A DNA stretch of 26,148 bases, taken from positions 1-26,148 of the IMG/VR virus record IMGVR_UViG_3300042567_001704. One strand, given 5' to 3'. Below are positions 1 to 25,132 of this stretch, one piece after another. How positions within the stretch are numbered: position 1 is the first letter of the stretch; the number at the start of each line of letters is the position of its first letter. This stretch comes from a virus. The notes below the pieces were generated by a model, which was not told the origin of the DNA, searched no databases, and saw nothing but the letters and a program-made list of their open reading frames with translations. The position numbers were made by a program, and so were the translations under genes.

Positions 1-192
1 ACCCAGTATCACTGCCACATCACTAGGCTCATAGTTAAAGTCGTCAACGATGACACCTTCATCACCACAGGCCTGCACACCTTGAATAAAAAATTTCAAG
101 GTGTTTAGTTTGTCTGTGGCAGCTTTCAAACTCTCAGCAGATGTGTACTGTTCTTTTTTGGGCAACGTGGCCAAATAACTTACTACTTTCAT
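1..192 (-). CDS. Partial phage protein at the left edge, possibly glycosyltransferase-related
   Basis: Only the N-terminal 64 codons are in the window; the frame runs off the left edge without a stop. It begins MKVVSYLATLPKKEQY and continues through a segment with FFIQGVQACGDEGVIVDDF and a DVAVILG strand. The ATG at 192 overlaps the TGA of the upstream gene (ATGA), so it is the last visible member of the minus-strand sugar-modification run. The pattern 'whole-domain hydrophobic strands ending in DVAVI-G' reminds me of uncharacterised phage proteins found beside glycosyltransferases, but the fragment is too short to assign. The start is well supported by the overlap; the function is not. Confidence 0.6.
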   Translation of the reverse strand, partial: MKVVSYLATLPKKEQYTSAESLKAATDKLNTLKFFIQGVQACGDEGVIVDDFNYEPSDVAVILG

Positions 193-1001
193 TGTTCTTG
201 CATCATTCTAAAAGCGGTGCCATCACGCAATTCTCTCACATGATATTGTCCATAAGCCATGCTGTGGCACCATGCATCCAGTGTGTCTTTCTCTGCCCAG
301 ACTGGGCTTTCAATGCGACTCAAGTCCTTGCTGGCTACTGGTTCAGCCACATGGCTAGGAGCCAACACAAATGCTGGCACACCAGCAAATATTGATTCCA
401 CTGCTGCAACACTATTAAATGTAACCAAAGCATGTACATCATTGGCCAACACTTGGTGTAACGGAGCAGTAGCCACACGATCAATTCGTTTGGGTGCTCG
501 TTGTCTAACTTCAACAGGACGATCTGTATATTTTTTTATTTCTGCAACAGTTTGTTCAACCCATTGTTGTTGATCAATGCCGTAGTACCTGCAGGGCTTT
601 TCGTCAGGCGCTGCCACAATAATTTTTCTACCAAACTTTCTTGGTTGCAATTGAATGCCTAATGCTTGCCACCTGTCGGCAGGCCTTGGCACGATTGTTC
701 GGTGTTGTAAATCGTTGCGAACAATACGATGATACAGCTTATTGCCCATGCGATTAAACTTACTGATGTTGTTGCCAACATAGCCAGAATCCACATAGTA
801 AAAATCTTTGTTATCCGCCAAGCACTTTTGCATGATCTTGTACTTGAGGATGCCACGCATGACCGGAGTCATTCCGTCCATTAGCACATCATATTTGTAG
901 TCAAAAAAGTCTGTGTCAGTGGGCTCTTGGCCAGCACTCCGGGCCAGCATGTTGATGTACTCATCCTGATTGCCTTTGCTGAGGAAAATAAAATTAGTCA
1001 T
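189..1001 (-). CDS. Putative GT-B-like / capsule-type glycosyltransferase
   Basis: A 270-residue protein. I chose the ATG at 1001, not the longer in-frame start at 1052, because it forms an ATGA overlap with the stop of the upstream gene, the junction used throughout this operon. The N-terminus (MTNFIFLSKGNQDEYINML) and middle are unremarkable. Residues about 188-212 read DVHALVTFNSVAAVESIFAG followed by VP, the C-terminal nucleotide-sugar-binding pattern of capsule polysaccharide and GT-B transferases, where a Ser/Asn-rich strand leads into a helix with a conserved acidic residue and 'GVP'. It would transfer a sugar to an unknown acceptor in the cytoplasm. It sits between a GT8-like gene and another member of the same run. 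The fold assignment is moderately supported; donor and acceptor are unknown. Confidence 0.7.
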   Translation of the reverse strand: MTNFIFLSKGNQDEYINMLARSAGQEPTDTDFFDYKYDVLMDGMTPVMRGILKYKIMQKCLADNKDFYYVDSGYVGNNISKFNRMGNKLYHRIVRNDLQHRTIVPRPADRWQALGIQLQPRKFGRKIIVAAPDEKPCRYYGIDQQQWVEQTVAEIKKYTDRPVEVRQRAPKRIDRVATAPLHQVLANDVHALVTFNSVAAVESIFAGVPAFVLAPSHVAEPVASKDLSRIESPVWAEKDTLDAWCHSMAYGQYHVRELRDGTAFRMMQEQ

Positions 1002-1687
1002 ATGATATCTCTTTGTTGGCAGTACTCTGTTAGTATGCGTTCTCTGTGCCACTCGTTGCCTTGTGGTGTATCAGCAAACTCGTGAAAGCATGGAGTGCCC
1101 AAGGTATAATGCAAGAGCTTGGCCGCGGGGTTTGGCCCGTATTCATCGGGCAACCAATTCCATTCAGGCGGTAGTTCACCCACACGCTCGTCATCTAGCC
1201 ACGTGAAGCGGTGGAGCTCACTGCCTGTGGATTTTTGGATGAATTCGGGAGTAAGTCGCCTGTTAGGAAAGCTAGCACAATTCCACAAAATAACACTAGA
1301 CCAATTTTTTCGAGGATAGTCTTCATTTTTTGCTCCTAGATATTTTACCGGCATCTTTGTCTTGTAGTCATGCTTGACCACTTGTACATCTTTGGACATG
1401 TCTCTCATGGCCCAAAGTTCTGCAATGTCGCCGCGCACAATCATGTCACCATCTATAAAAATTGCTGACCCAGTCCAACTCATCAAATACGGAACTAGGA
1501 AACGTGTGTAGATAAAGTGATTGCTACCGTCAGTATGTGTTTCGTCGTAGTCGCGAAACAAGTTAAGCGCCACTGGTACAATGCTCACAGGCCGACTTGC
1601 ATTTCTAATAATGCTGTTAACGCAGGTGTGATATGCTATGGCTTCTCGTGGATCATAGCCAACAAAGATTGGTATGATATCCTTCAT
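998..1687 (-). CDS. GT8-like glycosyltransferase (GT-A fold)
   Basis: A 229-residue protein starting MKDIIPIFVGYDPREAIAYH, the usual opening strand and YDPRE turn of phage and bacterial GT8-like transferases. The metal-binding DxD motif is visible as FIDGDMIV at residues about 77-84 (D79-G-D81). A conserved FIYTRFLVPYL helix precedes it at about 58-68, and a C-terminal LLHYT segment at about 191-195 could supply the usual metal-ligating histidine. The length is typical of minimal GT-A enzymes. Start and stop overlap both neighbours by four bases, so translation is probably coupled. The likely role is adding a hexose to a host surface glycan or a phage product; the sugar cannot be predicted. 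Confidence 0.82.
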   Translation of the reverse strand: MKDIIPIFVGYDPREAIAYHTCVNSIIRNASRPVSIVPVALNLFRDYDETHTDGSNHFIYTRFLVPYLMSWTGSAIFIDGDMIVRGDIAELWAMRDMSKDVQVVKHDYKTKMPVKYLGAKNEDYPRKNWSSVILWNCASFPNRRLTPEFIQKSTGSELHRFTWLDDERVGELPPEWNWLPDEYGPNPAAKLLHYTLGTPCFHEFADTPQGNEWHRERILTEYCQQRDII

Positions 1688-2439
1688 CTGCGTTCAATAT
1701 CCTCTTCCACACAACTCTCACCATACTGGATCTCAATTAGTTTTAAAGGTCTATCGGTTTCATTGCACAACATGTGCCAGCTATTTTTTGGAATAAAAAT
1801 ATGTTCATGTTTGACAAAAGTGCCCAGAGACTCTTCGTCTGTGCTATTATCAAGTGTGTACACTGCGGCTTCGCCTTCGGCCACAAACCAAAACTCAGCA
1901 CGTTGTTCGTGGCGTTGCATACTCAAACAAGTCTTGGGCGCAACTGTGAGCTCTTTGAGTTTGGTATTTGCACCTACTTCGTGTAGCACACGATAGTACC
2001 CCCATGCCCTAGTTGTCTTTGGTGTTTTCCATTCTTCCAGGATCCATGAACTGGAATTGGCTTTGTTGTCTCCCCCAACTCCAAACACAAACTCCACATT
2101 GTCAACTACCATCTCTGGAATGTTTTCAGATGTTCTATCTCCGCCGTTGGCAAAGATGATTTCATCGTTGGGATATTTTTCTTTGACCTTGCGAATAGCA
2201 TCAATGCTGGATCCGTCATCGTCATTGAATTCAATTACTTCTCCAACCATGTGTAGATTGTCCAACACAATCATGCGTTCACGCCAGGGCATGAACGGGC
2301 GGCCTTTTTTGCGTGTGAGCCACGCATCTGAGTTTAGTCCTACCACCACATGATCACCCAGGTGATCGGCATGATTCAGGTAAGAGATATGTCCGGAATG
2401 TAGCGGATCAAAGCCGCCTGTAACAATTACGATTTTCAT
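1684..2439 (-). CDS. Nucleotidyltransferase-cupin fusion (RfaE/TagD-type plus type II PMI-like)
   Basis: A 251-residue two-domain protein. Residues 1-~140 are a cytidylyl/adenylyltransferase: MKIVIVTGGFDPLHSGH carries the HxGH nucleotide-binding motif (H14-S-G-H17), and a later ANGGDRTSENIPE segment resembles the GGD region of heptose-phosphate adenylyltransferases. Residues ~145-251 are a cupin resembling the C-terminal domain of type II phosphomannose isomerases: RAWGYYRVL, then LSMQRHEQRAEFWFV with metal-ligand candidates, then IPKNSWHML and LIEIQYGESCVEEDIERR. The fusion would activate a sugar or polyol phosphate and possibly isomerise or bind a sugar phosphate. It is first in the minus-strand run and directly follows a TATAAATA element. 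Both domains are clear; the substrate is inferred. Confidence 0.85.
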   Translation of the reverse strand: MKIVIVTGGFDPLHSGHISYLNHADHLGDHVVVGLNSDAWLTRKKGRPFMPWRERMIVLDNLHMVGEVIEFNDDDGSSIDAIRKVKEKYPNDEIIFANGGDRTSENIPEMVVDNVEFVFGVGGDNKANSSSWILEEWKTPKTTRAWGYYRVLHEVGANTKLKELTVAPKTCLSMQRHEQRAEFWFVAEGEAAVYTLDNSTDEESLGTFVKHEHIFIPKNSWHMLCNETDRPLKLIEIQYGESCVEEDIERR

Positions 2440-2444
2440 GTTGA

Positions 2445-2452
2445 TATTTATA
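2445..2452 (-). promoter_or_regulatory. T4-type late promoter, predicted leaderless
   Basis: The minus strand reads TATAAATA followed by TCAAC and then the ATG at 2439. TATAAATA is the T4 late-promoter element, which normally lies at about -13 to -6, so transcription would start on the A of the initiation codon. No Shine-Dalgarno sequence fits in the five intervening bases. It would drive the minus-strand glycosylation run. Confidence 0.6.
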
Positions 2453-2476
2453 GGCTAATATAATGGTAAATATAAT

Positions 2477-3046
2477 ATGGAGCATTTTTACCAAGACATC
2501 TCGGGCTTTATGAGTCACAAAAACACAGTGATGCTGGACATGGCATTGGATCAATTTCCCAGATCGGGTACCTGGGTTGAGCTAGGATCTTGGACTGGTC
2601 GCAGTGCGGCATATTGTGTGGTTGAATTGCTCAATCGAAAAAAACTAGGTAAATTTTACTGTGTGGATAGTTGGAAGGGTGAAACTACTATAGCATATGA
2701 TCAAGCCATAGTGCAAGATCTTCAGAACATTTTTCGTAAAAATGTTGATCCTGTTATTGATCATATCAGTATGCTGAACATGATGAGCTGGGACGCCGCT
2801 GCTGAGTTTGCGGATGAATCTGTGGATTTTTGTTATGTGGATGCCGGGCACAGTTACGAAGCAGTGACCAACGATCTCACAGCCTGGTGGCCCAAGATGC
2901 GCCCAGGTGCCATGTTTGGTGGGGATGATTATACCAAAGGTTACCCGGGAGTGCAACAGGCAGTTTGGGACTTTTTTGGGCCACAGAACATAAAGGTTCG
3001 TAGAGCAGGACGTTGTTGGTTGGTAACAAAACCAAACGCACAATAA
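2477..3046 (+). CDS. Class I SAM-dependent methyltransferase-like protein (Methyltransf_24-like)
   Basis: A 189-residue protein. Motif I is TWVELGSWTGRSAAY at about residues 31-45, followed by a FYCVDSWKGE strand with the acidic residue expected to hold the SAM ribose. DFCYVDAGHSYEAVTNDL at about 116-133 matches the post-motif segment of the Methyltransf_24 type often found in glycan clusters, and GAMFGGDDY follows. It is the first plus-strand gene of the modification block, divergent from the nucleotidyltransferase-cupin gene with only 37 bases between starts. Two TATAAT-like hexamers lie upstream (2459-2464 and 2471-2476), but neither has a convincing -35. The methyl acceptor is probably a sugar or glycan; that is inference. 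Confidence 0.75.
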   Translation: MEHFYQDISGFMSHKNTVMLDMALDQFPRSGTWVELGSWTGRSAAYCVVELLNRKKLGKFYCVDSWKGETTIAYDQAIVQDLQNIFRKNVDPVIDHISMLNMMSWDAAAEFADESVDFCYVDAGHSYEAVTNDLTAWWPKMRPGAMFGGDDYTKGYPGVQQAVWDFFGPQNIKVRRAGRCWLVTKPNAQ

Positions 3047-3066
3047 CAAGATGATTTAAATACCAT

Positions 3067-3705
3067 ATGAATACATCTTGGCAAGAACATTATCGCACCA
3101 CATACTATGATTTACTAAATCCCAACGTCAGCGGAGCAAAACGATCTTTGGTCGAAGGCATTTACAAGCGAGCCGCAGGGTTTGATCTCATGTTTGATCT
3201 GCTGTTGAGTCAACGTCAAGAAAACTTTGTGATTGTGGAAACTGGTACTCTTAGGAATCCAGGCAACTGGAAAGATGGACAAAGTGCGGCATTGTTCACT
3301 GAGTTTGTGGATTGGCACGGTGGACAAATGCGCAGTGTGGACATTGATCCTGCGGCAGTTGATATTGCACGTAGACATATCGTGAGTGATCGATTCACGG
3401 TCACATGCAGCGACAGTGTTGCCTGGTTGGATTCCATGGCAGATCGAGACCAAGTTGATCTATACTATCTAGATTCCTGGGATGTCAAATGGCACAATGA
3501 CGCAGACAGCGCCCAACACCATCTTAAAGAATTTCTCTCAATCGAACCTTACCTAAAGCCAGGTTGCATTGTGGCCATAGATGACAACAGTCGTTGGGCC
3601 GCTACCCAAGCTCGCACAGGCAAAGGCCGCGCCATTGTGGAGTATCTTGAGACCAAGAATCATCATCCCATCCACGATGAATACCAAATAATATTTCAAT
3701 TCTAA
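3067..3705 (+). CDS. Second class I methyltransferase-like protein
   Basis: A 212-residue protein. FVIVETGTLRNPGNWKDGQS at about residues 55-74 is a motif I variant (ETGT), followed by MRSVDIDPAAVDIARRHI, a textbook motif II strand and helix with an acidic ribose ligand. DLYYLDSWDV and a CIVAIDDNSRW segment near the C-terminus fit the same fold. It lies 20 bases downstream of the first methyltransferase-like gene and its last base is the first base of the next gene. The sequence TTTAAATA four bases before the start region (3055-3062) could be a weak late-type element. The two methyltransferase-like proteins are not obvious tandem duplicates. The acceptor is unknown. Confidence 0.72.
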   Translation: MNTSWQEHYRTTYYDLLNPNVSGAKRSLVEGIYKRAAGFDLMFDLLLSQRQENFVIVETGTLRNPGNWKDGQSAALFTEFVDWHGGQMRSVDIDPAAVDIARRHIVSDRFTVTCSDSVAWLDSMADRDQVDLYYLDSWDVKWHNDADSAQHHLKEFLSIEPYLKPGCIVAIDDNSRWAATQARTGKGRAIVEYLETKNHHPIHDEYQIIFQF

Positions 3706-4493
3706 TGATTATAGATACATTTTTATTCAACGACGAATTTGACATGCTGGATATACATCTAGCAATTACCAGTCACTTTGTTGACCGCTGGATAGTGCTG
3801 GAAGCCAGTAGAACGTTTAGTGGCATACCCAAGCCTTATAATCTAACCAACAACCTGGCGCGATACCAAGCACAGTATCCTGACAGAATACAGGTTGTTA
3901 CACTGGAATTAAACGAAGATCAAACCAACTTGATTTGTGAAACCATGATGCGGCAAGGCCTACAACCTGCAATTGATCAATACAATGCAGATGACATTGT
4001 TATTCACGGCGACCTTGACGAAATTATAGATCCTACCAAATGGTCAGCCATTGTTGATCTTATGAACACTCATGATCGTGCAGTCACTTGTGGGTTCGAA
4101 ATGTACATGTACCGTTTTGATCAACGGGCTGATCGTGGCTGGAAAGGCAGTGTGGTTGCTAGAAAAAGCATGTTCGCTACGCCGCACGAATTGTACAAAG
4201 GACAAAACGTCAAACGCAAAGACCGCAGTCATTGTGTGGGACTCAAAGAACCAGTAGGATGGCACTGGACCTGGATTGGCACAGATGAATTGGTAAAAAA
4301 CAAAGCTCGAAGTTGTATCGAAAGCCAGCACAGAGATCCAGACCAGATACTTGAAGCATTCAAACGCTTGGACACAATATCAGCAATTAATCACAAGTGT
4401 ACCACTCAAACTATCAATACTGCATACCCTGAACAAGTACAATCAGTATTGAAAAACTATCCTGAATATTGGAATCATGCTCCTGTGCCATAA
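3705..4493 (+). CDS. GT17-like glycosyltransferase
   Basis: A 262-residue protein resembling family GT17 (beta-1,4-N-acetylglucosaminyltransferase type). The N-terminus MIIDTFLFNDEFDMLDIHLA, then VDRWIVLEASRTFSGIPKP, is the signature opening of this family (FNDE, VEA/LEA, TFSG, KP). The metal-binding acidic cluster is IVIHGDLDEIID at about residues 99-110. Homologues occur in several aquatic phages next to other transferases. Start and stop overlap the flanking genes by a single base (TAATG type). It would act in the cytoplasm on a nucleotide-sugar donor; the acceptor is unknown. Among the sugar genes here this is one of the more confident family assignments. Confidence 0.85.
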   Translation: MIIDTFLFNDEFDMLDIHLAITSHFVDRWIVLEASRTFSGIPKPYNLTNNLARYQAQYPDRIQVVTLELNEDQTNLICETMMRQGLQPAIDQYNADDIVIHGDLDEIIDPTKWSAIVDLMNTHDRAVTCGFEMYMYRFDQRADRGWKGSVVARKSMFATPHELYKGQNVKRKDRSHCVGLKEPVGWHWTWIGTDELVKNKARSCIESQHRDPDQILEAFKRLDTISAINHKCTTQTINTAYPEQVQSVLKNYPEYWNHAPVP

Positions 4494-5296
4494 TGAAAAC
4501 CGATCGAGAACTCAAGCAACAGCATCGTGCGGCTAGACAAGCACATCGCGAATCAAAAAGAAACCCATCGGTCACAGTGAGTCAATCCACAGTGGTTGAT
4601 TGTGCCTGTGTTATTCATGGCACTGGTTATGACTGGGAGTATGTGGAAAGACTGTACAACATGCTCATACGTCAGCTTCCGGGTGGCATACGTTTTCATG
4701 TGTATACTGAACATGATAGGTCGGTGCCACCACACATGATCAAACACATCTTGGATGATTGGGGATTTGGCGGTCCAAAAAAGTCCTGGTGGTACAAGAT
4801 GCAGTTGTTTAATCCTGCACACTATTCAGGACGCTTGCTGTACCTAGATCTTGATGTGGTAGTGGTTCGTGACCTGGAATGGATTACCGCACTTTCCACA
4901 GACTATTTTTGGACCATTAGAGATTTTAGATATCTGCAAAACCCTCGGGTCAACTCCATGAACTCCAGTGTGATGTGGTTCGACGTAGATCGTTTTGGTT
5001 GGGTATGGGACAAATTTAATTCTGGTCCTGTGTCGCAAATGATTCAAGGTTTCCCTGGAGATCAAGACTTTTTAAATGCTACAATAGATCACAACCAACG
5101 CAGATTCTTTGACGACAGTAAATTTCAAAGCTATCGTTGGCAATGCCTAGACGGTGGATACAATTTCAAGCGCCGCACTCATCATCGGCCCAACTCTGGC
5201 ACTGTGATAGCGCCAGACACAGCAGTTGTGGTATTCCATGGCAGGCCCAAACCACATCAAACCACGGATCCTGCTATCCGGGAACACTGGCAATGA
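4493..5296 (+). CDS. GT8-like glycosyltransferase with basic N-terminal extension
   Basis: A 267-residue protein from the ATG at 4493, which shares its first base with the TAA of the previous gene; a longer in-frame start at 4469 lies inside that gene and is less likely. Residues 1-25 (MKTDRELKQQHRAARQAHRE and on) form a charged, probably helical extension. The GT-A core carries RLLYLDLDVVVVRDLEW at about 114-130, with DxD at D119/D121. NSSVMWFD and PGDQDFLN segments follow in the order typical of GT8-like proteins, and VVVFHGRPKPH near the end supplies the usual HG. The next gene overlaps by four bases. Donor and acceptor are unknown. Confidence 0.82.
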   Translation: MKTDRELKQQHRAARQAHRESKRNPSVTVSQSTVVDCACVIHGTGYDWEYVERLYNMLIRQLPGGIRFHVYTEHDRSVPPHMIKHILDDWGFGGPKKSWWYKMQLFNPAHYSGRLLYLDLDVVVVRDLEWITALSTDYFWTIRDFRYLQNPRVNSMNSSVMWFDVDRFGWVWDKFNSGPVSQMIQGFPGDQDFLNATIDHNQRRFFDDSKFQSYRWQCLDGGYNFKRRTHHRPNSGTVIAPDTAVVVFHGRPKPHQTTDPAIREHWQ

Positions 5297-6138
5297 AACC
5301 AGTATTGCCTTTTTTAGAAATAATGCTTACACAGGTGTGCAATCTAAGTTGCGCAGGGTGTAGCACATACAGTGATTATCGTCATCAAGGCTATGCAGAC
5401 TGGTCTACAACTCAGCAGTGGTTGCAACAGTGGTTGGAAAAAATCTCAATTGAGGACATTGGATTCATGGGAGGTGAGCCCTTGATAAATCCACGTGTAC
5501 TTGAATGGCTTGAGGGTGTGCGTGAATTGTTGCCTGACAGCCGTATACGTTTTCCAACCAATGCACTATTACTTGAAAAACACTGGAATGTTGTGGAGTG
5601 GTTGTATCAGGATGGCAATGCTGTTCTTAAAATAACCAATCATACTGATGGCGCGGTGCTAGACACTATAGATAGATTGCGCAGTACCTATCGTTGGGAA
5701 CCCATACGTGAATATGGCATTGACCGATGGATTACAGATACCGGTTTAAGATTGCAAATAAACACACCCACAAAGTTTACTCAAACATTTCAAGGCACAT
5801 ACACCGACATGCAACCCTGGTTGTCTGACCCCAAGGAGGCCTATGCAAATTGTCATCAACAAACATGCCCCATGTTGTGGCAAAGTAGAATCTACAAATG
5901 TTCAACATCGGCATTGACACAGTCAGCATGGCAAACACATGGTAACACTAACTTGGCGGTTTGGAAAAAGTATTTTGATAATGCGACCAATGGCAGTATT
6001 GGGCTTGACTCTCATGCCAGTGCAGTTGATCAGTTTGTGGAAAACTTTGGACATGCTCATGCAATTTGTGAACAATGTCCTTCGGCCCGGCACCATGACT
6101 CTGCAATTGACCATCGAATCCGGGTAATGCAAAGATGA
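5293..6138 (+). CDS. Radical SAM enzyme with extra C-terminal cysteines
   Basis: A 281-residue protein from the ATG at 5293 (ATGA overlap); the longer reading from 5137 lies inside the upstream gene. The cluster-binding motif is CxxxCxxC: TQVCNLSCAGCS with C16, C20 and C23. GFMGGEPLINP at about residues 57-67 is the SAM-binding GGE motif. Additional cysteines in ANCHQQTCPM, YKCSTS and ICEQCPS resemble the auxiliary-cluster (SPASM or Twitch-like) region of peptide- or sugar-modifying radical SAM proteins. It could modify a sugar, a peptide or a nucleotide made by this block; nothing visible fixes the substrate. No short precursor peptide was seen next to it, which slightly favours a non-peptide substrate. 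Confidence 0.85.
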   Translation: MKPVLPFLEIMLTQVCNLSCAGCSTYSDYRHQGYADWSTTQQWLQQWLEKISIEDIGFMGGEPLINPRVLEWLEGVRELLPDSRIRFPTNALLLEKHWNVVEWLYQDGNAVLKITNHTDGAVLDTIDRLRSTYRWEPIREYGIDRWITDTGLRLQINTPTKFTQTFQGTYTDMQPWLSDPKEAYANCHQQTCPMLWQSRIYKCSTSALTQSAWQTHGNTNLAVWKKYFDNATNGSIGLDSHASAVDQFVENFGHAHAICEQCPSARHHDSAIDHRIRVMQR

Positions 6139-7255: not shown

Positions 7256-7263
7256 CATAAATA
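7256..7263 (+). promoter_or_regulatory. Late-type promoter variant CATAAATA
   Basis: CATAAATA differs from the T4 late element TATAAATA at one base and lies 23 bases upstream of the next gene. A GAGGA Shine-Dalgarno sequence (7276-7280) sits six bases before that ATG, so this transcript would have a normal leader, unlike the late-type element at 2445-2452. Confidence 0.45.
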
Positions 7264-17372: not shown

Positions 17373-17720
17373 ATGATTAAAAACATCACCGCTGGGCAAG
17401 GCATATACATTACCAACAATGGTCACAGCATGCCCTATATTGACATGACTCGCGCCAGTGCCGGCATGGTACGATACAATAACAATAACTTCGAAATTTA
17501 TGACGGTAGCAGTTGGATTATCATGCAAAGCAGTTATCCACAAGTGGAACTCAGCGGTGATGTGCAGGCAGTGATTAACTGGGCTCAAATCAAAATGGCA
17601 GAAGAATCACGTGCTAAAGAACTTGCAGCCAAACACCCCGCTGTGGCAGATGCATTACAAGCAGTAGCACGAGCCGAAGAACAAGTCCGCATTGTGACTG
17701 CATTGGTGGATACTGCATGA
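17373..17720 (+). CDS. Small virion-type protein with helical tail
   Basis: A 115-residue protein in two parts. Residues ~1-52 (GQGIYITNNGHSMPYIDMTR, then GMVRYNNNNFEIYDGSSWI) match the short beta module 'G-G-MVRYN----EVYDGSSW' found in many phage fibre and head-decoration proteins. Residues ~60-115 are helical and alanine-rich (INWAQIKMAEESRAKELAAK and on) and may form a coiled coil. It begins one base after the previous stop and overlaps the DnaE-like gene by four bases. A structural accessory is likely from the N-terminal module, despite replication neighbours. Confidence 0.65.
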   Translation: MIKNITAGQGIYITNNGHSMPYIDMTRASAGMVRYNNNNFEIYDGSSWIIMQSSYPQVELSGDVQAVINWAQIKMAEESRAKELAAKHPAVADALQAVARAEEQVRIVTALVDTA

Positions 17721-18286
17721 GCGCAGATATTGACATTGACTTTGCCAACAGAGATGATGCGCTGAAATTAATTCAGCATGTTCCTGCACAACAAAGCAAT
17801 GGTAAGAAGCACAACTCGGGTATCTATGTAACAGACATTCCTCAGGATCCTGTTAATCGTTGTGCCGCAATAGATTATGAAGAAGCAGAGCAACGTGGAT
17901 ATTTTAAACTAGACTTTTTGAACATGAGTGTGTATCAGTTGATTCGTGATCCTGCACACTATGAGCAAATGCTCACAGCCAGCCCACCCTGGGAACGACT
18001 GTGGACTGACGGACCTTGGGCCTCTCAACTGGTACACGTGGGCAATTATACAGATCTGCTACGAGTAATGAAACCAGATTCGATACCCAGGATGGCTGCC
18101 TTTATATCTATTATTCGTCCGGGCAAGGCACACTTACAAACTCGACCCTGGGCAGAAGTATTTGCTACAGTGTGGGATGGGGACGAATCAAAAGGCTACA
18201 CATTTAAGAAAAGCCACGCAGTTTCCTACGCGGCCTTGGTAGCACTACACATGAACTTGCTTAATCAAGACGACGCACAAGCGTAA
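17717..18286 (+). CDS. Miniature DNA polymerase III alpha (DnaE)-like protein
   Basis: A 189-residue protein that looks like a condensed bacterial DnaE. MSADIDIDFANRDDALKLIQ corresponds to the PDFDVDF...R palm motif, with D4 and D6 in the places of E. coli D401 and D403. KKHNSGIYVTDIP resembles KHAGGVVIAP. RGYFKLDFLNMSVYQLI resembles GLVKFDFLGLRTLTII, placing D66 at catalytic D555. LLRVMKPDSIPRMAAFISII then RPG (134-136) resembles the KPD...A-RPG stretch, and YTFKKSHAVSYAALVALHMN resembles FNKSHSAAYALVSYQ. The PHP, most of fingers and all C-terminal domains are absent; full DnaE has about 1,160 residues. Whether it polymerises is unknown. Its 3' end overlaps the opposite-strand gene by 26 bases. 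Confidence 0.8.
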   Translation: MSADIDIDFANRDDALKLIQHVPAQQSNGKKHNSGIYVTDIPQDPVNRCAAIDYEEAEQRGYFKLDFLNMSVYQLIRDPAHYEQMLTASPPWERLWTDGPWASQLVHVGNYTDLLRVMKPDSIPRMAAFISIIRPGKAHLQTRPWAEVFATVWDGDESKGYTFKKSHAVSYAALVALHMNLLNQDDAQA

Positions 18287-18638
18287 TTGACTTTCTTTTG
18301 CCTTTTCTTCGCACTATGTCCAGTAAACTGCATGCTGGGCCGTGCAGGATTTCCAAATCTTTGTTGACAAAAGTCTTCAAAGTGTAACGAAACTGTTCCC
18401 AATCATGTCTCAAAAAGATGTTGATGGGGATAGATCTATTGCTTTCCCACCACCACGTTGATGCTAGTTCCAAAAAAATTCGTTTGCTATCTTGATCTGC
18501 TACAGAGCCAAAGTCGTAGATTGTGGTCACAATATCATCACGATTTTGAACCACTCCTATGTATTCTAAATTAGCATAAACGCATAAGGTAATAAAGGGA
18601 TATTTTTCTGTTAGTTTTTCAAAGATACTGTTACTCAT
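18261..18638 (-). CDS. Conserved phage-type hypothetical protein
   Basis: A 125-residue protein from the ATG at 18638; an upstream ATG at 18671 would lie before the probable promoter. MSNSIFEKLTEKYPFITLCV opens the protein. LELASTWWWESNRSIPINIF then LRHDWEQFRYTLKTF, and a basic tail RRKGKRKSITLVRRLD, follow. The 'WWWES-R-IPINIFL---W--F---LKTF' plan seems familiar from T4-like aquatic phages, where it is annotated only as hypothetical. The basic tail would suit nucleic-acid or ribosome binding. It converges with the DnaE-like gene, sharing 26 bases at their ends, an arrangement that could produce antisense transcripts. Confidence 0.68.
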   Translation of the reverse strand: MSNSIFEKLTEKYPFITLCVYANLEYIGVVQNRDDIVTTIYDFGSVADQDSKRIFLELASTWWWESNRSIPINIFLRHDWEQFRYTLKTFVNKDLEILHGPACSLLDIVRRKGKRKSITLVRRLD

Positions 18639-18644
18639 ATGATA

Positions 18645-18650
18645 ATTATA
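18645..18650 (-). promoter_or_regulatory. TATAAT -10 element, predicted leaderless
   Basis: The minus strand carries a perfect TATAAT, then TATCAT and the ATG at 18638, giving the six-base gap seen in three plus-strand promoters. No good -35 is visible (TTGGAA at 15-base spacing is the best), so this is weaker evidence. Confidence 0.45.
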
Positions 18651-18744
18651 CTGTGTTAAGAATTTTTCCAATTAATTCTTGTTTACTTATACCAATTTAT
18701 CATATGGTAACATCTATTATTTTTTTACTAGCGAATGACATGTC

Positions 18745-19197
18745 ATGAAAATTTTTGAGTCAATACAAAGCATACCTCAGTTTGTTGGGCAAGGTGAAGC
18801 TATCAGCGAATGGATTGAGGTTACACAAGAACAAATAAATCATTTTGCAGATGCCACAGGCGATCGTCAATGGATTCATACTGATCCTGAACGAGCCAAA
18901 ACAGGGCCGTTTGGAGCAACAATTGCTCATGGTTTTTTTACCTTGTCCTTGATGCCCCAATTTTTTGTCAAAACTTTTTGGATTAAAAATCAAAAAATGG
19001 GGATTAATTATGGTGTCAATAAAGTACGTTTTACTAGCCCAGTTTTGACAGGTTCCCTGTTGCGAGCTAGAATTTCTCTAAAATCTTGTACTACAATTGA
19101 TAACGGTATGCAGTCAGTTTGGAGTGTCGTAGTTGAATGCAAGGGCAGTGACAAACCAGTTTGCGTGGCTGAAACAATAACCAGACATTATGCTTGA
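18745..19197 (+). CDS. MaoC/NodN-type (R)-specific enoyl-CoA hydratase
   Basis: A 150-residue single hot-dog-fold protein, the normal length of bacterial MaoC/NodN-like dehydratases. VTQEQINHFADATGDRQWIH and then TDPERAKTGPFGATIAHGFF is the hydratase-2 signature: D40 and H45 match the catalytic Asp-x4-His pair and IAHGF closes the active-site loop. LSLMPQFF and NYGVNKVRFTSPV, then TGSLLRAR, complete the fold. In bacteria it hydrates trans-2-enoyl-CoA to (R)-3-hydroxyacyl-CoA, linking beta-oxidation to polyhydroxyalkanoate or other acyl products. It is not a normal T4-like gene. It stands alone on its strand after a convergent minus gene, in an A+T-rich setting, and looks like a host-derived metabolic cassette. 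Confidence 0.88.
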   Translation: MKIFESIQSIPQFVGQGEAISEWIEVTQEQINHFADATGDRQWIHTDPERAKTGPFGATIAHGFFTLSLMPQFFVKTFWIKNQKMGINYGVNKVRFTSPVLTGSLLRARISLKSCTTIDNGMQSVWSVVVECKGSDKPVCVAETITRHYA

Positions 19198-19213
19198 AAC
19201 AAATAAGTAATAG

Positions 19214-20284
19214 ATGTATTCCACCACTGTTTATCTATATCAGCAACTTGTCCGAGTACTTTTGGTAGATACCAGTGGCGGGTATTTTACAGCGAGGTAC
19301 GATCCTGTGTACGCAAAACAATTGACAATAAACAAGGGAGTGGACAATGTTCTACTATTTGAATTCATAAATCAAGACCAGAAACCGGTAAACATTGCAG
19401 GTTCTAGCTTTGTTTTTCGTGTGGTAAATCAAGCAGGTGATGAACTCTTGGTAACCAAAGACATGGAAATATTGAGTTCAGCACTGGGGCGAGTTAAAGT
19501 GGTACTCAACTCAGAAGATACCATCAATATACAAGCACAACCTGCTAGTTATAGTATTCAACGCAGTGCAGGAAACTATGTGCAAGCGGCTTATGTGGAT
19601 GCCAATTCACAAGCTAGAGCAGATTGTAACATAGTAGACAGTGTATTTCCACAGTTTGTGCCCAGTGCAGTATGCACAGTGCCTGACATGTATGGCAAAA
19701 ACAACTTTGTGGGCACGGCCCCTACACAATTTCCTGACTGGGCACTCACACCACAACCACAGAACTCTATTCAACAAACCGAATTCTACAGCAGTCACAT
19801 GCCCACAAATGGTGCCAGCCTGACCACAGTAAAGTTTGATCTAGATACCTACACCGGCACGGTGAAAGTACAGGCTGCAGACAATTATGAATCAGTTTGG
19901 TATGATGTGACCGAAACTAGACAATATCTGAGTGAAACAGTGACTGATTATTTCAATATAATTGGCTTTCATCCGTTGTTGCGATTGGCACTGAATAATT
20001 CTATTGGATACGGCGCATCGGGCAATGTACAGGTCACCAACGGCGTGGTCACTGGTATAAGCATCACCAACGCAGGTTATTACTACGTGGCTCCGCCTAG
20101 TATTCAGATCCTTGGAACAGGATCTGGTGCTGTGGCCACTTGTACCATTGGTGATAACAACCAAATTTCTGGAGTGACCATTGTGAATGGTGGTTCGGGC
20201 TACTTGCCAATTCAATTCCAAGGTTCAATTGCTGCAACCGCGATATTCACAAACGGCAAGATTGAAAACGTTCAATATCGTTGA
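19214..20284 (+). CDS. Phage structural protein with beta-repeat C-terminus
   Basis: A 356-residue protein. The N-terminus MYSTTVYLYQQLVRVLLVDT then GGYFTARYDPVYAKQLTINK followed by GVDNVLLFEFINQDQKPVNI is a familiar opening for baseplate, fibre or neck-type proteins of aquatic T4-like phages. Residues ~265-345 hold two related beta units, GVVTGISITNAGYYYVAPPS and ISGVTIVNGGSGYLPI, each a 'G-V-I-NGGxGY' repeat typical of virion fibres. There is no enzyme motif. It is 16 bases downstream of the MaoC gene; no clear late promoter or ribosome site was found. Its stop codon is within the -35 element of the primase promoter. Exact virion location is unknown. Confidence 0.75.
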   Translation: MYSTTVYLYQQLVRVLLVDTSGGYFTARYDPVYAKQLTINKGVDNVLLFEFINQDQKPVNIAGSSFVFRVVNQAGDELLVTKDMEILSSALGRVKVVLNSEDTINIQAQPASYSIQRSAGNYVQAAYVDANSQARADCNIVDSVFPQFVPSAVCTVPDMYGKNNFVGTAPTQFPDWALTPQPQNSIQQTEFYSSHMPTNGASLTTVKFDLDTYTGTVKVQAADNYESVWYDVTETRQYLSETVTDYFNIIGFHPLLRLALNNSIGYGASGNVQVTNGVVTGISITNAGYYYVAPPSIQILGTGSGAVATCTIGDNNQISGVTIVNGGSGYLPIQFQGSIAATAIFTNGKIENVQYR

Positions 20285-20309
20285 TCTAGCGTAACTAATC
20301 TGTTATACT
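20281..20309 (+). promoter_or_regulatory. Sigma70-like promoter, predicted leaderless
   Basis: TTGATC (20281-20286), a 17-base spacer and TATACT (20304-20309) with extended -10 TG at 20301-20302, then CAACAG and the ATG at 20316. The six-base gap places the expected transcript start on the primase ATG. The -35 overlaps the stop of the structural gene. Confidence 0.78.
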
Positions 20310-20315
20310 CAACAG

Positions 20316-21305
20316 ATGCTAGACGTCCTTGCTTATCTGCCCGCAAAAAGAAAGCCCAGTCCACAGGGCTGGTTGAGTTTCAACGCGGTATGTTGTCAGC
20401 ACAATGGTAACAGTGCAGACAAACGTGGGCGTGGTGGCATTAAAGTAACAGAATCAGGTTGGAGTTATCATTGCTTCAACTGCGCATACACAGCTAGTTT
20501 TATTCTAGGACGCACAGTTAGTTTCAAAGCCCGAAGATTACTGGGATGGATGGGTGTGCCAGACAATGAGGTTGACATGCTCAATCTCGAAAGTTTACGA
20601 CATCGTAGCATACATGGTATTTTGGAAGATCGACAAAAGACATTTAACGCACTCAGTACCATTGAGTTTGAAGAATCAGATGATTTTCCACCTTATGCAG
20701 AAGTAGTCACACCTGAGCATCCGTTATACTGGGATTACATTCGTCGACGAAGTGTACCAGAAGACTTTCCCATAATGACTTCTATCAAGACTGATGGCGT
20801 TCATTGGGTTAGGCCTTTTGTAATGATACCATTTACCTATGATAACAAGGTGGTGGGATGGTGTGCTAGATTCTTAGATGACAAACAACCCAAGTATATC
20901 AATCACTCACAACCAGGTTATGTGTTTGGTACAGATCTGCAACATACCGACTGGCAACATGTGCTGGTGATGGAAGGCATTTTTGATGCACTCTCAATCG
21001 GCGGACTTGCAGTAATGCACAATACCATTAGCAATACACAAGCAAGATTGATTCGCAGTCTTGGACGTGAAGTCACGGTGGTACCTGACCAAGACACAGC
21101 CGGTGTGGAACTGATTGACCGTGCTGTGGAACTGGGCTGGGCAGTGAGTATACCTGAATGGCCGGCGGGTTGCAAGGATGTCAATGACGCTGTGATAAAA
21201 CTGGGACGACTAGGAGCCTTGCTAACTATTATGTCAGCAAGAGAAACTAACAAATACAAAATAGAAATAAGGAAAAAGCAACTTGGTAAAAGACTACGGA
21301 CTTGA
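20316..21305 (+). CDS. 61: DNA primase, gp61-like
   Basis: A 329-residue primase, close to T4 gp61 (342 residues). It would make RNA primers for lagging-strand synthesis with the gp41-type helicase encoded next. A zinc-binding head is visible: FNAVCCQHNGNS (C26/C27, H29) and WSYHCFNCAYTA (C53, C56). The TOPRIM core has VLVMEGIFDALSIGG with E220 and VTVVPDQDTAGVELIDRA with D258 and D260. The C-terminus is basic (EIRKKQLGKRLRT). It starts at a promoter with no leader and overlaps the helicase gene by 23 bases, so the two proteins are co-expressed, as expected for the primosome. Confidence 0.9.
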   Translation: MLDVLAYLPAKRKPSPQGWLSFNAVCCQHNGNSADKRGRGGIKVTESGWSYHCFNCAYTASFILGRTVSFKARRLLGWMGVPDNEVDMLNLESLRHRSIHGILEDRQKTFNALSTIEFEESDDFPPYAEVVTPEHPLYWDYIRRRSVPEDFPIMTSIKTDGVHWVRPFVMIPFTYDNKVVGWCARFLDDKQPKYINHSQPGYVFGTDLQHTDWQHVLVMEGIFDALSIGGLAVMHNTISNTQARLIRSLGREVTVVPDQDTAGVELIDRAVELGWAVSIPEWPAGCKDVNDAVIKLGRLGALLTIMSARETNKYKIEIRKKQLGKRLRT

Positions 21306-22740
21306 TGTCCAAAAATTTTTCTTAGAAATGATGTTGGAAGACGCAACAAGTTATGTGCGTGTTCAAAATATCTATAACCCGCAGAACTTTGACAAGAGTT
21401 TAAGACCTGCGGCAGAGTTCATCAAAGAACACTCAGACAAACACAAGACCATGCCTGACCGCACACAGATCATGGTCACCACAGGTATTAAACTTAACCC
21501 AGCACCGGATTTAAACGACGGGCATTATGAGTGGCTCATGACTGAGTTTGAATCATTTACTAAAAAAGAAGAACTATCACGAGCCATTTTAAAATCTTAT
21601 GACTTGCTGGAGAAGGGCGAGTTTGAACCTGTTGAAAAACTTATCAAAGATGCAGTACAGATATCACTTACTAAAGACATGGGCACGGATTACTTTGCTG
21701 ATCCTAAGGCTCGCATTGAGAAATACTTTAACTCGGGCGGGCAAGTAAGCACAGGATGGCCACAACTGGATAGATTGTTGTATGGTGGATTCAGTCGTGG
21801 TGAACTAAACATTTTTGCCGGCGGATCAGGTTCTGGTAAGTCACTTGTGATGATGAACATTGCACTAAACTGGTTGCAACAAGGCCTTAGTGGAGTGTAT
21901 ATCACACTAGAACTTTCAGAAGAACTCACAAGTTTGCGTACAGATGCCATGCTAACCAACATGAGCACCAAAGACATCCGTCGCGACATGGACACAACTG
22001 AACTCAAGGTCAAACTTGTGGCCAAAAAGTCTGGCAACTATCAGGTCAAAGGCCTGCCGGCACAGAGCAACATCAATGACATTCGTGCGTATTTGAAAGA
22101 GTATCAAATTCAAACAGGCAAGAAAGTTGACTTTGTGATGATTGACTACTTGGACTTGCTGATGCCTGTTAGTGCCAAAGTGTCACCTAATGACTTGTTT
22201 GTGAAAGACAAGTATGTGTCAGAAGAACTACGCAACTTGGCCAAAGAACTGGCAGTGCTAATGGTTACTGCAAGCCAGTTGAATAGAAGTGCGGTAGAGG
22301 AAATTGAATTTGATCACTCGCATATTTCGGGTGGTATTTCCAAGATCAACACCGCAGATAACGTGTTTGGTATATTTACAAGTCGCGCCATGAAAGAGCG
22401 TGGCAAGTATCAAATACAATGTATGAAGAGTCGAAGCTCGACCGGCGTTGGTCAAAAGATTGATTTGGAGTATAACATTGAAACCATGCGCATTACTGAT
22501 GAAGGCGGAGACGAGGGAACTGGATACAACAGACCCCAAAGCAGTATTATGGACTCAATCAAGGCCAAGAGCCAGGTCAAGGCTGCTGATACCGGAGTCG
22601 AAAGTGAATCATCTCCACCATGGGAACGAGCCACAGGAACTCCTGCCTGGGAAAAACCACCACAGGACACAGGCAAAGTCACAGCAGATGTTCAAAGTGC
22701 AAAACTAAAACAACTGCTAGGGCAGATTAAACAGTCATGA
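21283..22740 (+). CDS. 41: Replicative DNA helicase, gp41-like (DnaB family), TTG start
   Basis: A 485-residue hexameric-type helicase that would unwind the fork 5'-3' with the gp61-like primase. The N-terminal ~150 residues are helical. GGSGSGKS at 180-187 is Walker A; FVMIDYLDLL is the Walker B strand; VLMVTASQLNRSAVEE carries the sensor and Gln of motif H3, and KSRSSTGVG supplies the arginine-finger region. The TTG at 21283, inside the primase gene, has AAGGA nine bases upstream. The C-terminal ~60 residues are a flexible linker (PPWERATGTPAWEKPPQDTG) ending in a helix, KLKQLLGQIKQS. The last 67 bases of this gene occur a second time at 24071-24137; see those entries. Confidence 0.92.
   Translation: MVKDYGLDVQKFFLEMMLEDATSYVRVQNIYNPQNFDKSLRPAAEFIKEHSDKHKTMPDRTQIMVTTGIKLNPAPDLNDGHYEWLMTEFESFTKKEELSRAILKSYDLLEKGEFEPVEKLIKDAVQISLTKDMGTDYFADPKARIEKYFNSGGQVSTGWPQLDRLLYGGFSRGELNIFAGGSGSGKSLVMMNIALNWLQQGLSGVYITLELSEELTSLRTDAMLTNMSTKDIRRDMDTTELKVKLVAKKSGNYQVKGLPAQSNINDIRAYLKEYQIQTGKKVDFVMIDYLDLLMPVSAKVSPNDLFVKDKYVSEELRNLAKELAVLMVTASQLNRSAVEEIEFDHSHISGGISKINTADNVFGIFTSRAMKERGKYQIQCMKSRSSTGVGQKIDLEYNIETMRITDEGGDEGTGYNRPQSSIMDSIKAKSQVKAADTGVESESSPPWERATGTPAWEKPPQDTGKVTADVQSAKLKQLLGQIKQS
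22674..22740 (+). repeat. Helicase 3' end, copy 1 of a direct repeat
   Basis: These 67 bases align without gaps to 24071-24137: 55 match, and the first 45 differ at one base only. All differences up to the last two codons are synonymous (GTT/GTA, CTA/CTG, GGG/GGC, CAG/CAA, ATT/ATC). Copy 1 forms the functional C-terminus of the present helicase gene. Confidence 0.9.
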
Positions 22741-23381: not shown

Positions 23382-24105
23382 AATTTTTACATTTGGGGAT
23401 GGCTATGCCACTGGGCATATATGGCCTGAATGGCCGCAAATTTTACAGGCATTGTTGCCAGAGTATCAAATAGTTAATACAGCAGGAATTGGCGCAGGTG
23501 CAGAATTTTTAGTGTCTGGTTTGATTGATCTTTTACCGAATATGCACCACCAACAAGCAATTGTGCAATGGCCGCAGGCCAATCGATTTGATAAGTTATT
23601 ACAAGATCAGTCGTGGGATTCTACAATTTCAAATGACAGTGTCTATCACTTTAATCGAGTACGCGATACTCAAAAAAGAGAGTGGTGGTTAAGTAGTACT
23701 AGTGACAGCGTAAAATTGTATCATGAGCATTATGTACAAAGTTCGCAAGGCCATCGTCGCTTGGAAATCTTTAAGACTTTGGTAACACACACATTAAATC
23801 AAATTGACTGCGGCACTGTATACACCTCAACTCAAGATCAAGAATTTTACAGTAGACAAACAAGATTTATTACAACCAGACAGAGTCAAATACAGCCTAG
23901 TCCAGTAGTGCATTTTTATTGGATAGTTGAAAAGATTCTACCAAAGTTAACAGCACAAGTTGATCAATCAAGACTTGTAATGTTAGAAGTCCTGATAAAC
24001 AAAATTAATTGGGTGCCTTATGATCCTAACAGGGAATCAATCTGGCAAGATATAGTTAGGAAATTGCACCCAAAGTCACAGCAGATGTACAAAGTGCAAA
24101 ACTAA
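23374..24105 (+). CDS. Cassette ORF 2, SGNH-like protein D with GDG in place of GDS
   Basis: A 243-residue protein, MNKIFTFGDGYATGHIWPEW and on, with the SGNH block I position occupied by GDG: the nucleophile Ser is replaced by Gly, so hydrolase activity is doubtful. NTAGIGAGAEFLVSGLIDLL (about 34-53) matches block II and QQAIVQWPQANRFD (about 59-72) the strand and Asn of block III. The last 11-12 codons (PKSQQMYKVQN) are read from the helicase repeat in a different frame, so the gene has lost its own stop and probably its native C-terminus. No DxxH pair is seen at the end, consistent with truncation. It overlaps ORF 1 by eight bases. Confidence 0.65.
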   Translation: MNKIFTFGDGYATGHIWPEWPQILQALLPEYQIVNTAGIGAGAEFLVSGLIDLLPNMHHQQAIVQWPQANRFDKLLQDQSWDSTISNDSVYHFNRVRDTQKREWWLSSTSDSVKLYHEHYVQSSQGHRRLEIFKTLVTHTLNQIDCGTVYTSTQDQEFYSRQTRFITTRQSQIQPSPVVHFYWIVEKILPKLTAQVDQSRLVMLEVLINKINWVPYDPNRESIWQDIVRKLHPKSQQMYKVQN

Positions 24106-24137
24106 AACAACTGCTGGGCCAAATCAAATCAAATTAA
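24071..24137 (+). pseudogene. Remnant of the helicase gene 3' end, copy 2
   Basis: In the helicase frame this reads KVTADVQSAKLKQLLGQIKS then N and TAA, matching the last residues of the intact helicase (ending IKQS). Upstream of 24071 that frame meets a TAG within about 15 bases, so there is no longer gene. The TAA overlaps the stop of the convergent structural gene at 24134, implying that the helicase originally ended here. Confidence 0.85.
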
Positions 24138-25083: not shown

Positions 25084-25091
25084 TATTTATT
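25084..25091 (-). promoter_or_regulatory. Late-type promoter variant AATAAATA
   Basis: The minus strand has AATAAATA, one change from TATAAATA, followed by a 20-base leader containing AGGA before the ATG at 25063. This is the expected layout of a late structural gene with a normal leader. A weaker plus-strand candidate, ACTAAATA at 25106-25113, faces the opposite way. Confidence 0.45.
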
Positions 25092-25132
25092 TGAACTTGA
25101 TATACACTAAATAATCCAAAGGCCCAGATTGC

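Follow-up and report, generated by a model that had tools for sequence, protein, structure and literature searches.

A MaoC-type gene, metabolic and of host type, lies between phage genes on both sides in a viral record of 26,148 bases (hereafter the window, meaning the whole stretch of DNA analysed), and the same arrangement is found in related IMG/VR contigs. We consider it probable, with good confidence, that this is an auxiliary metabolic gene, that is, a bacterial MaoC/Rv0130-type gene acquired by a small phage lineage and encoding a hydratase that would act on host acyl-CoA. Phage metabolic genes of this kind are rare, though already known, and the history of acquisition and transfer is unusually clear here. 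The features discussed are collected in Table 1.

The rest of the window includes a set of replication genes, encoding a UvsW-type helicase, a primase, a DnaB-like helicase and a phrog_1250-related AAA protein, with helicase and primase genes near MaoC; the primase and the AAA protein are closest to those of large Agrobacterium (Atu_ph07) and Pseudomonas (PA5oct/MIJ3-type) phages (32-41%). The stretch 189-6138 encodes glycosyltransferases, two Methyltransf_24 proteins, a cytidylyltransferase-cupin fusion and a radical-SAM protein, a content that suggests surface-sugar modification. The hexamer TAAATA is rarer in the window than expected by chance (9 occurrences vs about 17), and several of these occurrences are found just upstream of gene starts (2445-2472, 3057-3062, 7258-7263 and 25084-25113), as in T4-type late promoters.

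Table 1. Coordinates of the features discussed, in the window unless another record is named.
Feature	Position	Strand	Remark
MaoC/Rv0130/NodN-like gene, putative (R)-specific enoyl-CoA hydratase / 3-hydroxyacyl-thioester dehydratase	18745..19197	+	150 aa, ATG start
Catalytic dyad codons D40...H45, in the hydratase 'overhanging segment'	18862..18879	+	codons at 18862 and 18877
IAHGF loop, residues I60-F64	18922..18936	+	from sequence; H62 invariant
Left flanking conserved gene, phrog_11637, no assigned function	18261..18638	-	divergent from MaoC
A+T-rich divergent spacer upstream of MaoC, presumed regulatory	18639..18744		106 nt; 23.6% GC; conserved beyond synonymous sites
Right flanking conserved gene, phrog_1084, weak virion/baseplate-type matches	19214..20284	+	16 bp downstream of MaoC
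Inserted segment	18639..19213	+	~575 bp; 11-54 bp spacer in relatives; true ATG of the minus gene ends at 18638
Recombination block, minus gene-MaoC-right gene	18291..20500		~2.2 kb; ~99% identical to L005; right edge approximate
Fatty-acid-type gene of G077	L143 1024-2217	-	
Fatty-acid-type gene of G077	L145 3469-4227	+	
Fatty-acid-type gene of G077	L146 4617-5339	-	
Fatty-acid-type gene of G077	L144 4284-4745	-	

A hydratase of the Rv0130/NodN-like subgroup

The first-pass annotation, made from the DNA letters, described the product as a MaoC/NodN-type enzyme of full length, and database and structural comparisons bear this out. The Pfam model MaoC_dehydratas (PF01575) matches most of the length of the protein (E-value 1.3e-28; 99.5 bits, the cut-off being 27), and Rv0130 of M. 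tuberculosis (PDB 2c2i) is the nearest protein of solved structure, with 51% identity over residues 1-149 (2.1e-46). An AlphaFold2 model, built from eight sequences, has a mean pLDDT of 92 and a predicted hot-dog fold; over all PDB chains its best match is again 2c2i (TM-score 0.94, rmsd 1.2), and the 3-hydroxyacyl-ACP dehydratases HadAB and HadBC are among its fold neighbours. Searches of NCBIfam gave no model above its cut-off and those of PHROG no match, while the BFVD collection of viral structures returned nothing at E<=0.001, so that the protein is unusual among predicted viral structures. Its nearest kin are thus bacterial enzymes and not a phage-only family lacking catalytic residues, the finding that had been named as telling against a metabolic gene. 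By sequence and by predicted fold, the protein is a member of the Rv0130/NodN-like subgroup of MaoC-like hydratases. Some NodN-like proteins are of unproven biochemical role.

Rv0130 itself has been placed among the NodN-like MaoC hydratases; its catalytic residues are Asp40 and His45, and Pro71 kinks its central helix (PMC2698920). The window protein keeps the same D40/H45 numbering and has a proline at position 71 of its central helix; it differs from Rv0130 in being encoded by a phage, and in the copy of the contig L006, which represents the second phage lineage, position 71 is a serine. The Asp-x4-His pair and the IAHGF loop, noted as intact at first reading, are confirmed by a 35-row alignment of homologues in which D40, H45 and H62 are invariant. 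A NodN-type protein of Rhizobium leguminosarum is 45.8% identical over residues 6-146 and shares the same motifs; its gene lies beside glmS on a conjugative plasmid, a point of difference being that there is neither a nodulation cluster nor nod-like neighbours. The (R)-specific enoyl-CoA hydratases of the PhaJ type (1iq6, 5cpg) share the fold family and the dyad, but, at 19-25% identity and TM-scores of 0.68-0.70, they are not the nearest subgroup, the identity to Rv0130 being 51%.

The reading frame is open in both phage lineages, and comparison of the window with L006 by the Nei-Gojobori method gives for MaoC a dS of 0.443 and a dN of 0.0745 (ratio 0.17), for the right neighbour 0.625 and 0.030, and for the primase 0.842 and 0.060, respectively. 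By these substitution rates the gene is under purifying selection, weaker than that acting on the core genes, and the earlier expectation of a likely active enzyme gains support at the sequence level. The product is most likely, from its sequence and its model, an active (R)-specific enoyl-thioester hydratase/dehydratase working on host acyl-CoA.

The donor was sought by phylogeny, as the first-pass annotation had proposed, and the outcome is a weak preference for Burkholderiales. A tree of 35 rows pairs the two phage copies with supports of 100/99 and puts homologues of Cupriavidus and Caballeronia (49-51% identity) nearest by path, the joining forks being weakly supported; chromosomal sampling for this tree was limited, and a scan of genome contigs gave three Bacteroidota matches only. 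A Burkholderiales-type donor may thus be taken as a lead only. One match in a phage collection (MT837097, 44.5%) was set aside, as its place in the tree is with Prevotella and it seems to be bacterial DNA. A candidate-viral IMG/VR contig of 17.9 kb (L096, 3501-5020) carries a MaoC gene, 49% identical to that of the window, adjoining a TauD-type dioxygenase.

Possible role in acyl-thioester metabolism

Among viral metabolic genes a MaoC-like one has already been reported, that of the haloarchaeal tailed virus HATV-2 (PMC8651126), which resembles the present case, by description, in that a MaoC-type hydratase is carried by a tailed virus, and differs in its archaeal host. A search of open-licence papers found no PhaJ reported as auxiliary metabolic gene and no MaoC in jumbo or freshwater phages; the 'MAOC' of PMC12376549 is mineral-associated organic carbon and not the enzyme.

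The hydratase would be a homodimer, as Rv0130 is; it would hydrate trans-2-enoyl thioesters to (R)-3-hydroxyacyl thioesters and would also catalyse the reverse reaction. In the infected cell of a presumed host, this activity could shift host acyl-CoA between the intermediates of beta-oxidation or fatty-acid metabolism and (R)-3-hydroxyacyl pools, the most likely direction being from fatty-acid or polyhydroxyalkanoate (PHA) carbon to acetyl-CoA during infection. An acyl-thioester substrate is supported by the annotated bacterial homologues found on plasmids, which lie mostly beside genes for acyl-CoA dehydrogenase, thiolase, FabG/SDR or acyl-CoA ligase. The pathway served may be PHA metabolism, beta-oxidation or lipid supply, and the first-pass annotation had also named homoserine-lactone-related acyl chains as a possible target. 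The window ORFs submitted to a Pfam scan include no PHA gene, and neither the window nor those large relatives that were searched, which are fragment records, matched the SDR, acyl-carrier-protein or ketoacyl-synthase families; any pathway must then rely on host enzymes, with the reservation that absence from fragments is not proof.

Lipid supply deserves to be weighed separately. The enzyme might serve the membrane or surface lipids of the infected cell, dehydrating 3-hydroxyacyl thioesters in the direction of fatty-acid synthesis, and not PHA or beta-oxidation, a reading that we hold as tentative and rather unlikely. It would agree with the presence of HadAB and HadBC among the fold neighbours, but the sequence is far closer to Rv0130 and NodN (51 and 46%) than to the Had proteins. 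It would also agree with two other phage contigs in which a MaoC gene co-occurs with FabF- and FabI-like genes, one of them having a FabG-like gene as well, but these MaoC proteins are only about 29% identical to that of the window, so their context may not carry over, and the partner genes are absent from the records of the window phage family that were searched.

The two contigs are of interest in their own right. G077 (IMGVR_UViG_3300044960_000113, 184 kb) encodes, besides the distant MaoC (29% to the window), a FabF-like ketoacyl synthase and FabI-like and FabG-like reductases, all with visible catalytic motifs (Cys-His-His, YxxxxxxK, YxxxK and D-x4-H); judged by sequence, these genes are candidates for all four steps of the fatty-acid elongation cycle. 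An acyl carrier protein was looked for on this contig and was not found; a RecA/UvsX-type gene adjoins the FabI-like gene. G076 (IMGVR_UViG_3300045136_000054, 93 kb) carries a distant MaoC, a ketoacyl synthase and one SDR.

Insertion, upstream spacer and movement between phages

When the primase gene was used as bait, 530 related viral stretches were recovered. Among the best 80 of these, 52 loci have both flanking genes readable and no MaoC, and their flanks are 11-54 bp apart, against 542-548 bp in the MaoC-bearing loci, all spacings being measured from the start of the tblastn match. The filled loci (17 records, some repeated) correspond to six IMG/VR contigs and the window. The replaced short spacer is bounded on each side by the start codon of a neighbouring gene, and visual inspection showed no target-site duplication. 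The same six contigs of the phage family were recovered with the MaoC bait and with the MaoC alignment, and a deeper search of viral contigs with the alignment added no further family members. Four records picked by a DNA pattern scan (L103, L094, L095 and L101) were chance matches, with no MaoC by tblastn. The distribution of empty and filled sites points most readily to a gain of this one gene by one lineage, so the acquisition of a single gene, suggested by the first-pass annotation, is well supported; since only six contigs and the window carry it, the gene is dispensable. A small lineage of a myovirus-like phage family would thus have taken a bacterial MaoC/Rv0130-type gene into a short spacer between two core genes.

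Some features of the neighbourhood had to be redrawn. The minus-strand neighbour, described at first as convergent with MaoC, is divergent from it, its ATG ending at 18638 and the gene running leftward; it converges with the plus-strand gene at 17717-18286. The A+T-rich flanks are real on the left (positions 18639-18744 have 23.6% GC, against 42.7% for the window) and not on the right, where 16 bp separate MaoC from the next gene. The ribosome site is indeed lacking, with no Shine-Dalgarno sequence upstream of MaoC, and this is nothing special, as 18 of the 25 window genes surveyed are without one. The assignment of the right neighbour as structural is plausible, given weak matches to virion proteins.

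The left spacer is strongly conserved. Compared with L006, 97 of 105 aligned positions are identical (92%), against 36 of 50 fourfold sites in MaoC (Fisher p=0.0012) and 233 of 378 fourfold sites pooled over four genes (p=1e-10); synonymous-site identity ranges from 57 to 72%. Conservation beyond synonymous sites points to the spacer as a likely regulatory region. No specific promoter was identified, and a simple sigma-70 scan stayed near its shuffle expectation. MaoC would be expressed rightward from this divergent spacer, presumably at some stage of infection and probably together with the following gene.

The locus has also moved between phages. The block listed in Table 1 is nearly identical to its counterpart in L005, whereas to its right identity falls to roughly 70-95% and to its left there is non-homology plus one gene about 78% identical; in the same comparison dS is 0.033 for the right neighbour, inside the block, and 0.485 for the primase. 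A block so similar between far more diverged flanks indicates that MaoC was transferred by recombination, and the sequence comparison places this exchange as recent. Directly to the left of the block, L005 has a homing-endonuclease-like gene (3849-4466, minus strand; phrog_314, 3.1e-7, and NUMOD3 weakly). The window phage is without this gene, so it is a possible cause of the transfer only. In other relatives, the spacer between the pol gene and the minus gene is occupied by different single cargo genes. Elsewhere in the window, a repeat of about 50 bp copying the 3' end of the DnaB-like helicase gene flanks a cargo slot (22674-22723 and 24071-24119), as it does in L006 (8907-8971 and 9940-9993), and the cargo differs, being two ORFs in the window and a radical-SAM-like ORF in L006.

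Such mobility raises the question of whether MaoC is of use to the phage at all. It could be carried along, with little benefit, by recombination in a variable part of the genome, perhaps under the action of a neighbouring homing endonuclease; the block transfer with diverged flanks, the endonuclease-like gene of L005, the changing cargo of the adjoining spacer and the small number of phages carrying MaoC would all suit such a passenger. We regard this as unlikely: a dN/dS of 0.17 at a dS of 0.44 with the frame open in both lineages, an upstream spacer more conserved than synonymous sites and the absence of that endonuclease gene from the window phage itself argue against it. A combined scheme, in which MaoC would be a mobile module traded by recombination beside a homing endonuclease gene and would let the phage burn host PHA or fatty acids, appears improbable. 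Finally, a re-use of the hot-dog fold in a structural or regulatory role (e.g. virion-associated and co-expressed with the next gene), to which the closeness of MaoC to a possible virion gene, starting just 16 bp further on, might point, is very improbable and was dropped because the catalytic residues are retained, dyad and loop being kept in both phage lineages with 51% identity to Rv0130, and in most relatives the downstream gene is made in the absence of MaoC.

An acquired hydratase acting on host acyl-CoA is thus the reading that we prefer. The locus offers a cleanly bounded entry of a metabolic gene into a phage, for which sequence comparison reveals the empty site, the filled site, the selection on the gene and its later movement. 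Should the hydratase work during infection, it would link phage infection to acyl-CoA and possibly to storage-polymer metabolism.
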